A stretch of DNA of 5,500 bases, taken from NCBI GenBank assembly GCA_021789565.1, contig JAJYJL010000672.1, positions 1 to 5,500 of the forward strand, given 5' to 3'. The notes beneath the pieces were generated by a model that saw only the letters and a list, made by a program, of their open reading frames with translations, searched no databases and had not been told where the DNA came from. Position 1 is the stretch's first letter. Each line of letters starts with the position of its first letter. Position numbers and translations under genes: made by a program. Positions 1-5,388 of this stretch are shown here, piece after piece. Source of the DNA: Acidobacteriota bacterium. GTDB taxonomy: Bacteria > Acidobacteriota > Terriglobia > UBA7540.

Positions 1-653
1 CTCGAAAGACACCACCGCTTGGCCATTCGCCTGATGGGGCTCTTCTTGATCATCTCGTCTTCAAAGCGCCGCCAGGGGCTCCATGCCTCGCTCGCCGAGT
101 CCGAGCACTGCTTGACCTTCTCAATCTCCTGGCGAGTCATCCACTCGAAATCAGTGCGGCCATCGCGAAACTCGACGACAGCGTATGCGCCAATCCAGTC
201 GCCGCGCTTGGCCGGATCGAGAACCGGGACGTGGACGAGTTGTCGGCCGGTGCCGAGCTTCAACGAAAATTGGTCGCCACTATGAACAATTGCTGGATAG
301 ATGCTCGATACCTTGCCGGTGCGATGGGCAAGCGCAATAAAACCGCGGTAGCCGATAAGGAGTTGGCACTTCAGAATGTTGTTGGCTTTCTTATCCCGCC
401 GCGGCACAAGGTAAGCGTGGCCGAGCTTGTTGCCGAGCATTAATCCAAGTTGCGAAGCTTCGAGCACCGACTGAACGATGCTCAGCGGCTCGCATTGACG
501 CAGAAACGAATCTGCGCGAACGGTTTCGAGCGCGACGAAAATCATCTTGTCGGCGTCAAGATGTCGCGGCAGGTATTTCACGATTTGGGTGCGGGCTTGG
601 GCAAGCAAGGCCTCGACGGGCTGACCCGTGCCCGAGCTGACGGACTGATTCAT
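1..653 (-). CDS. recT: RecT-family single-strand DNA annealing protein, 3' end beyond the window
   Basis: RecT-type proteins bind single-stranded DNA and anneal complementary strands in phage-style homologous recombination, usually with a 5'-3' exonuclease (RecE or a YqaJ-type nuclease) encoded nearby. The reading frame starts with ATG at 653 and stays open to the left edge, giving 217 complete codons. Family landmarks are visible: SQLGLMLG (about 67-74), GHAYLVPRR (78-86), LLIGYRGFIALAHRTGKV (98-115), GAYAVVEFRDG (155-165), a WMTRQEIEKVK block (171-181), and WSPWRRFEDEMIKKSPIRRMAKR (191-213), which matches the family's W...EM.KK..IRR signature. E. coli RecT is about 269 residues, so roughly 50 C-terminal residues are missing here. 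A strong ribosome binding site, GGAGG at 662-666, lies 8 bases before the ATG. The gene follows ssb on the same strand but is separated from it by an opposite-strand gene, so it probably needs its own promoter. Confidence 0.93.
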   Translation of the reverse strand, partial: MNQSVSSGTGQPVEALLAQARTQIVKYLPRHLDADKMIFVALETVRADSFLRQCEPLSIVQSVLEASQLGLMLGNKLGHAYLVPRRDKKANNILKCQLLIGYRGFIALAHRTGKVSSIYPAIVHSGDQFSLKLGTGRQLVHVPVLDPAKRGDWIGAYAVVEFRDGRTDFEWMTRQEIEKVKQCSDSASEAWSPWRRFEDEMIKKSPIRRMAKRWCLS

Positions 654-883
654 TGAATTCACCTCCGTTGTGGGTCTCGTAGGTACTTGTTGCGAGGTGG
701 GAAAAGCAAATCTACGCCAAGTCGCAAAGCTCCAGGCCAGGAACTTATCTCCATTGGGTCACGAGTTGAAAACCGAAACGTCGAGCTATATCCTTCCTCC
801 AGAGATACGAAGGAAAGTGACGAAGCCGACTTGGTAACGTTGGTAGCCTCTCTTCGCCACGAGACCATGGGGGAGAGTTGCCG
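654..883. other. Divergent intergenic region between recT and the plus-strand gene
   Basis: This 230-base stretch separates two divergently oriented genes, so it should hold promoters for both. The recT ribosome binding site is at 660-669 on the minus strand. A purine-rich GGGGGAGAG at 869-877 serves the plus-strand gene. A 66-codon plus-strand frame (TTG 687 to TGA 887) ends in a GTGA overlap with the next gene, and a 69-codon minus-strand frame (868-659) ends just ahead of recT. They overlap each other, so at most one is likely to be real. Neither has a recognisable domain. The plus-strand frame starts only from TTG, with a weak AGG ahead of it. Confidence 0.5.
766..794 (+). promoter_or_regulatory. 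Candidate sigma70-type promoter for the plus-strand gene
   Basis: TTGAAA at 766-771 matches five of six bases of the -35 consensus. It is separated by 17 bases from TATCCT at 789-794, which matches four of six bases of the -10 consensus. Transcription would begin near 801 and leave a leader of about 80 bases before the GTG at 884. This is a by-eye match to a general consensus in an unknown host. If correct, the message would not include the start of the small frame beginning at 687. Confidence 0.3.
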
Positions 884-2166: not shown

Positions 2167-2604
2167 TTAAAATGGAATTTCACTCGGATCGTCCTCGCGG
2201 AAAGGATTGTCCTCTTCGTGAGGCTCGGACGGTTGAGTGGGCGGAGCAGCTTTCGGCTTGGCGCCGTTGCCATTCGCAGATGGGGAAAGCATCTGCATGT
2301 AATGGGCAATGATGTCGTACGATTTTCGCTCGTTGCCGCCGCGGTCGGTCCACTTTCCAGTGCGAATGGCTCCTTCGACATAGCAAGATTTGCCACGGGT
2401 CAAGTATTCACCGCAAATCTCGCCCAATTTTCCGAATGCGACTACCGAGTGCCACTCTGTCCTCTTTTGAACCTCGCCGGCCTTGTTCTTGAACGTTTCG
2501 TTCGTGGCCAGCGAGAACCGGCAAACTGCGGCGCCGGACGCCTGGTACTTCACGGCTGGATCTTTTCCAACGTGGCCTATCAATATCACCTTGTTGACGC
2601 TCAT
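2167..2604 (-). CDS. ssb: Single-stranded DNA-binding protein
   Basis: SSB coats single-stranded DNA during replication, repair and recombination and recruits partners through its C-terminal tip. This 145-residue protein has a complete OB fold (residues 1-107). It begins MSVNKVILIGHVGKDP and includes VCRFSLATNE, RTEWHSVVAFGKLGEICGEYL (the conserved tryptophan is W51), YVEGAIRTGKW and a closing strand ending HYMQML. A flexible linker rich in Pro, Ala and Asn follows. It ends in an acidic tip, EDDPSEIPF, close to the canonical DDIPF that binds partner proteins, so the gene is intact. The ATG at 2604 overlaps the preceding gene's TGA as ATGA. An AGGAG at 2615-2619 lies 10 bases upstream, inside that gene. 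Its place near recT and in a phage-like cluster suggests an element-encoded copy rather than the host's main ssb. Confidence 0.96.
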   Translation of the reverse strand: MSVNKVILIGHVGKDPAVKYQASGAAVCRFSLATNETFKNKAGEVQKRTEWHSVVAFGKLGEICGEYLTRGKSCYVEGAIRTGKWTDRGGNERKSYDIIAHYMQMLSPSANGNGAKPKAAPPTQPSEPHEEDNPFREDDPSEIPF

Positions 2605-2858
2605 GATTTTTCAACTCCTCTCTTGAGAGCATTTCCTTTCATCGAACCCTTGTTCGTGCGATGTGCGCGTTCCTGTTCCGCAGCTATGATTGCGGCCCGA
2701 TTCCAGACCTGCGCCCACGTGATAAGGAGACTCTGGCGATGCCCCTTCGGACGAAGGCGAAGTCCCCAGGGCTCGACATGAACAACGAGGGGCCGCTTTC
2801 CGATTAAGAAGGGGGTTTCCAACGCCAGCCGTCTCCGGCGATCCACCAGTCGCGTCAT
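2601..2858 (-). CDS. Small uncharacterised basic protein, 85 residues
   Basis: The function is not recognised. The start ATG overlaps the stop of the upstream gene as ATGA, and its own stop overlaps the ssb start as ATGA. It is thus a link in a translationally coupled chain. A GAGG at about 2865-2868 lies 6 bases before the ATG. The middle (about 22-67) looks like a compact fold: strands in RPLVVHVEPWGLRLRPKG, then ITWAQVWNRAAIIAAEQERAHR, which should form an amphipathic helix. The first ten residues and the last twenty are strongly basic, which would fit nucleic-acid binding, but that is inference. Small proteins with a similar RPKG...W...AA..AA pattern are, as I recall, common hypotheticals in environmental phage and mobile-element DNA. 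The neat overlaps with both neighbours are the best evidence that it is a real gene. Confidence 0.72.
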   Translation of the reverse strand: MTRLVDRRRRLALETPFLIGKRPLVVHVEPWGLRLRPKGHRQSLLITWAQVWNRAAIIAAEQERAHRTNKGSMKGNALKRGVEKS

Positions 2859-3781
2859 TCATCACCTCGGGACGTGAAGCGGAACTTGCGGCCCACGCGA
2901 TCCGACACCATCGTTTCCAAATTCGCTGCAATCGCGCCAATGCCCGCCCGGACGCGCGAACGCAGTTCAGCCGTATTGCGGATCGCATCGGTAGTCGTTC
3001 CGGCGAGTAGTGCCCGCGCCCGTTCGACCTGGTCCTTCAGTTCCTCGTCATTTGTGACGTTGCGGAAATCGAACGTGTCCAGGAATTCTCTCAACTTCTG
3101 GACCGTGGATTCCCGCAGCCGCTGGGGCGTACCGTCCGGCTGGTCGGTGAGCCGGTCCCGCAGATGCGCGACCAACTCAACCATGGCCTCGCGCAGCACT
3201 TGGCGAACTTCGGTATAAGCTTCCGACATCCGCTGCGCCGCCTTTTCCCGCTCGTCCTGGAACATGCGCTCCGAGACTTCCCGAAGCTGCTCCGGGACAC
3301 CGTAGCTGACGTATTGCCAAGTCGCGCTGAATTCTGAGCGAACTTCCTCAGCCGGCGGATAATCCAGCGGATTGTAGAGGGTGCGCAACCGGGACGCCGC
3401 TTCCGCGCAAAGCCGCGGATAGGCGGCGAGAAACACTTCCACTAAATCTTGCCGCTTTGCCGCAAATTCACGAAGACTTTCGTTCACGGTTTCGATCAAG
3501 GGGATCGGGAGCAAGTGGATTCCCGGCTCGAACGGCAGACACACGCCGTAGAGATAGCGCCGAATCTCGCCGTCCAATCGGCGCACGGCTTCAAGCTCCG
3601 GCGAGTCGAGAAGTGTCTTGCTGACCTTCACGAGCCGCTTATCAGCATCCACCTCGACCTGCGCGGAACTCACCTTGCGGCTGTTGCCGGGAAGGCCCAA
3701 GCGCAGTTTGACGAAAACAGTCTTGCGGACAAGGTCTTCTCCCGGATTTTCAATGTCTTGGATCAACGGTGCTGTTGCCAT
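2855..3781 (-). CDS. Uncharacterised 308-residue protein, DUF3150-like
   Basis: No enzymatic function can be assigned. The arrangement resembles my recollection of DUF3150 proteins, which often sit beside AAA+ ATPases. An N-terminal strand region (TVFVKLRLGLPGNSRKV, about 21-37) is followed by LLDSPELEAVRRLDGEIRRYL (57-77), CLPFEPGIHLLPIPLIETVNE (81-101), VEVFLAAYPRLCAEA (114-128) and LYNPLDYPPAEEVRSEF (135-151). From about 164 to 290 it is almost entirely charged helix, probably coiled coil, including EREKAAQRMSEAYTEVRQVL. The final DRVGRKFRF is basic. There is no signal peptide or membrane segment, so it is probably cytoplasmic. The ATG at 3781 has GGAG (3789-3792) 7 bases upstream. It follows the ATPase gene by 71 bases and overlaps the next gene by 4, so the three are probably co-transcribed. 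A role as adaptor or substrate-binding partner of the ATPase is inference. Confidence 0.8.
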   Translation of the reverse strand: MATAPLIQDIENPGEDLVRKTVFVKLRLGLPGNSRKVSSAQVEVDADKRLVKVSKTLLDSPELEAVRRLDGEIRRYLYGVCLPFEPGIHLLPIPLIETVNESLREFAAKRQDLVEVFLAAYPRLCAEAASRLRTLYNPLDYPPAEEVRSEFSATWQYVSYGVPEQLREVSERMFQDEREKAAQRMSEAYTEVRQVLREAMVELVAHLRDRLTDQPDGTPQRLRESTVQKLREFLDTFDFRNVTNDEELKDQVERARALLAGTTTDAIRNTAELRSRVRAGIGAIAANLETMVSDRVGRKFRFTSRGDE

Positions 3782-3852: not shown

Positions 3853-5388
3853 TCATGCTTCGCCGACTGGTGGTGTCAGAATGGCAAGAGGTTCGTTTCG
3901 CCGGATCATGCGCCGCGGGGGGCCTTCCGCTTCATCTTCGTACCGGTAAACGCCCGACCTCGAAGCACTGAGGAATTTCCCAGAGGCCATCTGCCGCAAA
4001 GCCTTGATCTGGTCAGCCGCCGACCGCGAAACCGGGATGGTGTACTGTGCGGCAGCTATCAGACTCATCTTCAAGCGATGCGCCTTCCGGCAGCACTCCT
4101 TGATTTCCGCGCCAGTCCAGCCGAAATCATTTGGCAAGTCGCCAGACACCCCATACTTCTTCAAATAGATTTCCCAGATCGCCTCTCGCTCCTCGGTCGT
4201 GGGCAGGTCAAAGAAGAACGTGCCGAGCGTAAAGCGCCGCCTCAGTTCCGGCGGCAGGCTGGTGATGGAGTTGCACGTGGCGATAAACAACGTCCTTCCT
4301 TGGGAGACGGCTTCCACAACTTTGAGCGCGGTCCGCAAGCGCTCTCCCGATGCTCCCACGAGCGAACTCTCCATGGCCGTCAAATCAAACGCAATCGTCG
4401 GAATGCCTGCCGTGGCGCCCGTAGCCTTTGCCGTCGCACTCTTCGCGCTCCCGGGCGGACCGATGAAGATCAGGCCGTCTGCCTCGTGGTCCTGCATCCA
4501 GGTGAGCATCGTGCCGGCCATTTCGGTCTTCACGCCCGAGAGGTCCGTCCTGGTTCCTGCAAACGCCTTTTCAATTTCATCGATGAAGACGATCACCCGT
4601 GGCGGATCAACGCCGGCGAGCACCTCCCCCAGGAATTGCTTGACGTTATCGAGCCCGCCCAACCCATCGAATGTCTCACCGCCACGCCAGACGGAGAGCC
4701 CGGGCGTCTGTTCGATCATCTGCCGCTTTCGCTCCGAGAGGTCTTCCGGATCGAGTTCGCCGTAGACCAGCGACATGGCGAGCGCCTGCTCGGCCGGGAA
4801 GCCCGCGAGGCCAATCAATGCATCCACGGCGCCGGTCATAAGTGCGCTGTCAGGCTCGTCAAAGCCCGCGTCCTTGAATGTTGCCCGCACGATCCGCTTC
4901 AGGTCATCCTCGGATGGCAATGGCTCATCGAGGATGAACACGTCCTGCGCGAGTTCCGCTGGCAGAGTGGCGCCGGGGGATGTCAGCAGTACCAGCATCC
5001 GACCGTTCGCCTTGAAAGCATCGCGGAGATTCCAGATCGCCTGCATGACGCTCGATTCATTCCAGAACCGGTGCGCGTTCGCGTAAATCAGTACTGCATC
5101 TTCAGAAAGCTGGCGAGCCATGAGCAACGCATCCGCGGGCCCCACCGTTGCGGCTTCACGGTCACCTAGGATTCGTGCCGATTCGTCGCTGCTTTCCTTG
5201 TTGATGGCGTAGAGGCCCCGCATCACGTCCCATCCAATAATCGGAGTCAGCTCGCGGTCCTGCTTGAGGGCCTCGCTGAGGAAGCGCGTTGAACTCGCCG
5301 GGTCTGCGGTTCGCAATGCAATGAGCGGAGTCGAAACACACCGCGCGGAATGGAACGCCGACGCAAATTCCTCCATAGATCGAATCAT
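3853..5388 (-). CDS. AAA+ ATPase with Ycf46-like N-terminal half and reordered Walker motifs
   Basis: This is a 511-residue ATPase that probably uses ATP hydrolysis to remodel a protein or nucleoprotein target; the target is unknown. Residues about 20-170 (TPLIALRT, IIGWDVMRGLY, AVLIYANAHRFW, RMLVLLTSPGATLPAEL, DEPLP) match the N-terminal region of Ycf46-type AAA proteins. The ATPase core begins at GGLDNVKQFLG (244-254). Walker B, VIVFIDE, is at 265-271, followed by TMLTWMQD. Only then comes Walker A, GPPGSAKS, at 310-317 (alanine in place of the glycine before the lysine). Then come SSLVGASGERLR (341-352), sensor 1 TLFIATCN (366-373), the arginine-finger segment ELRRRF (381-386), FFFDLPTTEER, and a sensor-2-like TGAEIKECCRKA (425-436). 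In ordinary AAA proteins Walker A precedes Walker B. All key residues are present, so activity is plausible. ATG 5388 has AGGAG (5397-5401) 8 bases upstream. The same frame stays open upstream through the pyrG fragment. Confidence 0.93.
   Translation of the reverse strand: MIRSMEEFASAFHSARCVSTPLIALRTADPASSTRFLSEALKQDRELTPIIGWDVMRGLYAINKESSDESARILGDREAATVGPADALLMARQLSEDAVLIYANAHRFWNESSVMQAIWNLRDAFKANGRMLVLLTSPGATLPAELAQDVFILDEPLPSEDDLKRIVRATFKDAGFDEPDSALMTGAVDALIGLAGFPAEQALAMSLVYGELDPEDLSERKRQMIEQTPGLSVWRGGETFDGLGGLDNVKQFLGEVLAGVDPPRVIVFIDEIEKAFAGTRTDLSGVKTEMAGTMLTWMQDHEADGLIFIGPPGSAKSATAKATGATAGIPTIAFDLTAMESSLVGASGERLRTALKVVEAVSQGRTLFIATCNSITSLPPELRRRFTLGTFFFDLPTTEEREAIWEIYLKKYGVSGDLPNDFGWTGAEIKECCRKAHRLKMSLIAAAQYTIPVSRSAADQIKALRQMASGKFLSASRSGVYRYEDEAEGPPRRMIRRNEPLAILTPPVGEA

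Follow-up and report, generated by a model that had tools for sequence, protein, structure and literature searches.

A Ycf46-like AAA+ ATPase family of soil phages and bacteria with Walker B ahead of Walker A

Few folds have been studied as much as AAA+ domains, which are recognised by the order of their motifs; to our knowledge, the canonical order (Walker A, then Walker B, then sensor 1) is the rule among AAA+ proteins. It is kept in the classical AAA domains of Cdc48/p97, Vps4 and FtsH, and in the canonical Ycf46-like ATPases, such as those of Candidatus Manganitrophus (WDT73634.1), Pseudomonas phage SM1 (gp026) and Mycobacterium phage Firecracker (gp100), with cyanobacterial sisters that we take to be Ycf46. 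Here we describe an ATPase gene that departs from this order, situated in a stretch of 5,500 nucleotides (the window) from an Acidobacteriota contig (JAJYJL010000672.1, assembly GCA_021789565.1). Plasmids of Candidatus Manganitrophus carry the closest relatives of canonical order, which share about 30% identity with it.

Motif order and architecture of the ATPase core

The gene is a 511-residue open reading frame (ORF) on the reverse strand (5388-3853) in which Walker B (VIVFIDE, 265-271) lies ahead of Walker A (GPPGSAKS, 310-317), followed by SSLVGASGE (341-349), sensor 1 (TLFIATCN, 366-373) and the arginines (RRRF, 383-386); the chain order of classical AAA domains is absent from this protein. 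A first-pass annotation, made from the sequence alone, had placed Walker B, Walker A and sensor 1 at these very residues and had read the arrangement as a segment swap inside the ATPase core, not as a circular permutation of the whole domain. Both points are borne out, the latter by hhalign comparison with canonical sisters. Four pieces of the ORF, compared singly with a canonical sister profile (eight sequences, led by that of Manganitrophus), tile that profile with expectation values (E) of 2e-33 to 4e-18, one pairwise comparison each: residues 1-257 match canonical positions 1-237; the Walker A block (302-365) positions 241-304 (E 1e-22); the Walker B block (258-303) positions 296-343 (E 4e-18); and residues 366-500 positions 345-475 (E 3e-28). 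The N-terminal half and the C-terminal part are homologous to those of canonical Ycf46-like ATPases. Because of this piecewise match, sequence comparison indicates that two adjacent blocks, beta1-alpha1-beta2-alpha2 and beta3-alpha3, are exchanged, with sensor 1 and the lid kept in place. The further proposal that moving one block back would restore the canonical order exactly holds insofar as the pieces tile the profile, and is slightly generous as to exactness, since at the alpha2/beta3 join some five canonical positions are shared by the two blocks. The likeness of the joined strands (GLIFIGPPGS and RTLFIATCNS) was confirmed.

The Pfam AAA profile (131 positions, gathering score 21.2) gives a similar division when the pieces are scored apart: the Walker A piece matches positions 1-55 (E 5e-7), the Walker B piece positions 59-97 (E 0.0025; 18.7 bits, below the gathering score), and the sensor-1 piece, weakly and below the cut-off alone, positions 103-124 (E 0.3). 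The whole protein reaches 52 bits against a cut-off of 21, split in two stretches, whereas a canonical sister obtains 90 bits in one stretch: a warning that profile searches assuming a motif order underscore such proteins.

Across 87 diverse aligned family members there is no variation at six residues (K316, D270, E271, T371, N373 and R385), and the Walker B pair DE is present in 259 of the 261 unique permuted members. The motifs by which a classical AAA domain is known (Walker A, Walker B, the sensor 1 Asn and the arginines) are all present and conserved. Because the catalytic residues are invariant, the permuted protein is probably an active ATPase. Its Walker A is mostly G..G.AK[ST] in the permuted family and G..G.GK[ST] in the canonical one, where Gly precedes the Lys in all 86 sequences with the motif (seven of 93 lack it by the same expression); the Ala is perhaps co-adapted to the swap. 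A regular expression for a P-loop in the N-terminal region matched 6 of 261 unique permuted members, and these matches look like chance hits in a variable region.

The sheet of the AAA fold has the strand order 5-1-4-3-2. An AlphaFold2 model of the core is confident (mean predicted local distance difference test score, pLDDT, 92.8; predicted template modelling score, pTM, 0.89) and has close structural matches to AAA domains; its linkers are short, one of about six residues leading into the moved strand and one of three leaving its helix. Foldseek alignments of both the core and the full-length model were global and had a high root-mean-square deviation. Matches in the PDB covered at most 209 of the 251 residues, possibly excluding the moved block, so that they leave its place unproven; the three best viral structural matches bear the name ycf46. 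Strong coevolution links the moved block with the end of alpha2, beside which it lies in canonical proteins. The chain is predicted to fold as an AAA core in which Walker B has its usual neighbours. The earlier view that the sheet could still assemble is supported by the confident core, its matches to AAA domains and the strong coevolution, which agrees with the moved block sitting where it does in canonical proteins; the coevolution overall is less clear-cut and is weighed below.

Table 1. Features of the window, with the ATPase gene and its parts first and the neighbouring genes after them
Feature	Position	Strand	Support or remark
Permuted Ycf46-like AAA+ ATPase gene, 511 residues	3853..5388	-	GGAG upstream of ATG
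N-terminal half: AAA-like domain without Walker A, plus linker (residues 1-257)	4618..5388	-	
Moved block, beta3 (Walker B) and alpha3 (residues 258-303)	4480..4617	-	hhalign; Pfam AAA 59-97, below cut-off alone
Walker B VIVFIDE (265-271)	4576..4596	-	Sequence; D270 and E271 invariant in 87 aligned members
Beta1 (Walker A), alpha1, beta2, pore-loop-like LVG, alpha2 (residues 304-365)	4294..4479	-	hhalign; Pfam AAA 1-55
Walker A GPPGSAKS (310-317), Ala for Gly before Lys	4438..4461	-	Sequence; K316 invariant in 87
Sensor 1 IATCN (369-373)	4270..4284	-	T371 and N373 invariant in 87
RRRF (383-386), candidate arginine finger	4231..4242	-	R385 invariant in 87; role by analogy
Beta4, beta5, helical lid, tail (residues 366-511)	3856..4293	-	hhalign of 366-500
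DUF3150 gene, conserved partner, 71 bases downstream of the ATPase gene	2855..3781	-	Pfam PF11348, E 9e-7, 28.9 bits vs 24.9
Single-strand DNA binding protein (SSB)	2167..2604	-	Pfam SSB 7e-34; phrog_44
RecT-like annealing protein, cut by window edge	3..662	-	phrog_148 5e-61

Spread and origin of the permuted order

Our protein search scored 7997 candidates, 1782 of them at E <= 1e-3. The best 120 of these 1782 were fetched; with the window protein added, block profiles place Walker B first, then Walker A, then sensor 1 in every one of the 121. Genome contigs provided 48 loci, mostly from Acidobacteriota, with the members from Deltaproteobacteria and Planctomycetota permuted too; the permuted order was read in 38 genome-contig ORFs. 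Two scans of viral contigs yielded, respectively, the best 80 of 216 relatives (39-72% identical) and 398 relatives, from which 79 distinct ones were kept, on contigs that overlap in part with the first scan. All 159 viral loci kept with permuted queries are permuted and all 80 kept with a canonical query are canonical, a split that is in part a product of query choice. The canonical query matched 138 phage records, and chain order was read in eight fetched records; the seven fetched through those phage searches are all canonical. Classified by block profiles, 419 ORFs comprise 319 permuted (261 unique), 97 canonical (93 unique) and 3 partial forms. The first motif is Walker B in 261/261 unique permuted members and Walker A in 93/93 unique canonical sisters; the partial ORFs (two without the Walker B block, one without sensor 1) are taken to be cut by contig ends. 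The permuted form is also present in the complete genome of the cultured Tunturiibacter phage Tunturi_3, whose host is an Arctic soil acidobacterium. Homologues with the same junctions, by which the first-pass annotation had proposed to check its claim, were thus found in numbers, in independent genomes, a cultured phage and metagenomes; chance does not account for the order.

The gene looks accessory, because strong matches (1e-40) occur in 3 of 297 genomes of one phylum, the seed genome included and the candidates scored in part. Several copies of the permuted core can occur per genome, with two strong full-length matches in one genome (G001) and four in another (G003); in a further genome (G006), matches split in a canonical-looking manner are found besides the permuted core.

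For the origin of the swap we built a 'quick' tree, its root not inferred, from the N- and C-terminal parts with the core left out, using 93 rows, 48 of them permuted and 45 canonical, which were drawn from 179 representatives chosen among 404 usable sequences. All 48 permuted proteins lie on one side of a single branch, with a support of 100 in the Shimodaira-Hasegawa-like approximate likelihood ratio test (SH-aLRT). The canonical order is taken as ancestral because it is the general one in AAA+ proteins. A single rewiring would then have exchanged the two adjacent blocks, most simply by a tandem duplication of the two-block segment from which the outermost block on either side was then lost.

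Gene neighbourhood

The ATPase gene occupies the spot held in relatives by a canonical Ycf46-like ATPase, together with DUF3150 and often with DUF1257 and DUF2997. In the window DUF3150 is present alone of the three, neither DUF1257 nor DUF2997 being found; ATPase, DUF3150, SSB and RecT make up a phage-like recombination setting. Within 3.5 kilobases downstream of the permuted loci, DUF3150 was counted in 100/120, DUF2997 in 73/120, DUF1257 in 72/120 and any of them in 111/120; for the canonical loci the counts are 21/76 (DUF3150), 19/76 (DUF2997), 22/76 (DUF1257) and 34/76 (any). The neighbour profiles were built mostly from permuted loci, so that these counts favour the latter; moreover, some members of the DUF1257 and DUF3150 groups fall under the Pfam cut-off alone, and part of the DUF1257 set is weakly supported by Pfam. 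The three DUFs form a cassette of uncharacterised families common to plasmids and phages, and DUF1257 is the Ycf35 of cyanobacteria and plastids. On a Candidatus Manganitrophus plasmid (locus L130, 7872-10578) a canonical ATPase gene is followed by genes annotated DUF1257, DUF2997 and DUF3150. Because this canonical gene precedes all three, the association of ATPase and DUFs would predate the swap.

Among 69 neighbour proteins from 13 viral loci we found exonucleases, DnaB-like helicases, DnaC-like loaders, Erf-like annealing proteins and methyltransferases, with one to three members per named group. A radical S-adenosylmethionine (SAM) group lies downstream in 12 of 87 loci, and a radical SAM/4Fe-4S single cluster gene, so named by Pfam, was seen near the permuted ATPase in 22 loci (e.g. 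L001, 7328-7942). The best 120 of 581 DUF3150 homologues at E <= 1e-3 indicated no function, and the stretch from SSB to DUF3150, searched as DNA in a phage collection, gave no match. Between the RecT and SSB genes, on the opposite strand, lies a 393-residue ORF (878-2059, +) with a G+C content of 0.53, against 0.60 in the ATPase and DUF3150 genes; at the thresholds applied it matched nothing in Pfam, PHROGs or PADLOC, and it is possibly a cargo gene.

Weighing of explanations and comparison with known systems

With a probability of roughly 85%, we consider the protein to be an active, classical-clade, Ycf46-like AAA ATPase in whose core two adjacent blocks traded places in a single rewiring. 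This gives the chain order beta3-alpha3-beta1-alpha1-beta2-alpha2-beta4-alpha4-beta5; ATP would bind where Walker A meets the Walker B that now precedes it in the chain. Subunits would form a ring in which the neighbour supplies the arginines, and the N-terminal half would serve as a platform without a P-loop of its own that enters the core via the Walker B strand. In phages and prophages, the motor may remodel a protein in the recombination/replication region, helped by DUF3150 and in many loci also by DUF1257 and DUF2997. It would be a ring-forming protein remodeller in phage DNA metabolism, with DUF3150 as its main partner; the roles of substrate and partners are inferred. For the fuller claim of a natural, active AAA+ motor with connectivity rewired in one event, an inactive N-terminal half that feeds the Walker B strand and not the P-loop strand, and a co-adapted Walker A (AK for GK), we regard the chances as even.

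Several observations weigh against this reading. The model of the whole chain reaches moderate confidence only (pLDDT 75.2, pTM 0.54); structural aligners are perhaps sequential and may omit the moved block, and the strand order in the model is a presumed one. The coevolution signal is mixed and has little depth (about 98 effective sequences): among strand pairs beta3-beta4 ranks top, beta1-beta2, a pair that the canonical sheet does not bring side by side, scores high too, and the newly neighbouring pairs as a whole class are not significantly raised (p 0.098). The tree was a quick one with some canonical rows flagged for long branches, and duplicated block forms (ABAB, ABA or BAB), as the duplication route would pass through, number 0 among the 419 classified ORFs. 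In unique permuted members with the motif, Ala (195/260) prevails over Gly (48/260) before the Walker A Lys. Finally, remodelling, oligomer and partners rest on inference.

The Ala also speaks for a dead scaffold, kept as a binding platform after the swap had broken the ATPase, but K316, D270, E271, N373 and R385 are invariant across the 87 diverse members, DE is almost universal at Walker B, and the core model is confident; we think such a loss of catalysis unlikely. Slightly less likely still is a domain swap between subunits, in which the Walker B strand would complete the sheet of a neighbour and interlock the ring: coevolution is blind to the difference between contacts within and between chains, yet the single chain is modelled confidently, with linkers of about six and three residues. 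An IetA-type anti-phage defence ATPase, carried as phage cargo, is suggested by weak PADLOC and NCBIfam matches and is a shade less probable again, as the NCBIfam match reaches 31 bits against a cut-off of 510 and covers general AAA parts alone, and as the neighbours are DUF1257, DUF2997, DUF3150 and recombination/replication genes. By far the least credible is an assembly or cloning artefact that misjoined two pieces in the window contig, the outcome by which the swap would have fallen. It was the obvious first doubt, but nothing was found in its favour: many assemblies, with 261 unique sequences between them, show the same block order, as do the complete genome of a cultured phage and relatives down to 39% identity.

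The ATPase with swapped blocks is widespread in soil phages and their bacterial hosts, keeps its catalytic motifs and is predicted to form the usual engine, which suggests that evolution can rewire a very common molecular motor. If the fuller claim above is true, the supposedly fixed chain order of AAA+ proteins is dispensable for function, and the coupling from ring to ring would be unlike that of the AAA+ machines known so far. The swapped family and its unswapped sisters beside the same partner genes amount to a natural experiment on the connections of the AAA core, which addresses those that matter for folding, allostery and the coupling between rings.

No AAA+ family with a permuted core, or with Walker B first, was found described in the open PMC literature (subscription papers being outside its coverage), in agreement with the first-pass annotation; passages of papers on DNA phosphorothioate, jumbo phages and MCM treat permutations of other kinds. 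Tunturi_3 gp103, 43% identical to the window ATPase and of the same permuted order in a cultured Acidobacteriota phage, is annotated as ATPase only, and the main text of the Tunturi_3 paper contains neither 'ATPase' nor 'AAA' (PMC11924767). The window protein can be aligned with the Manganitrophus-led canonical profile along its N-terminal half, in each of the two core blocks, and at sensor 1 and the lid; unlike the permuted family, canonical Ycf46-like ATPases have Walker A first and Gly before its Lys. The circularly permuted GTPases (YlqF/YjeQ type) are P-loop NTPases of changed motif order in which the GTPase domain is cyclically permuted. Unlike these, the window ATPase has two internal blocks exchanged, with sensor 1 and the lid remaining C-terminal: it is an AAA+ protein by homology and predicted fold, and stands outside the canonical definition by its chain order.
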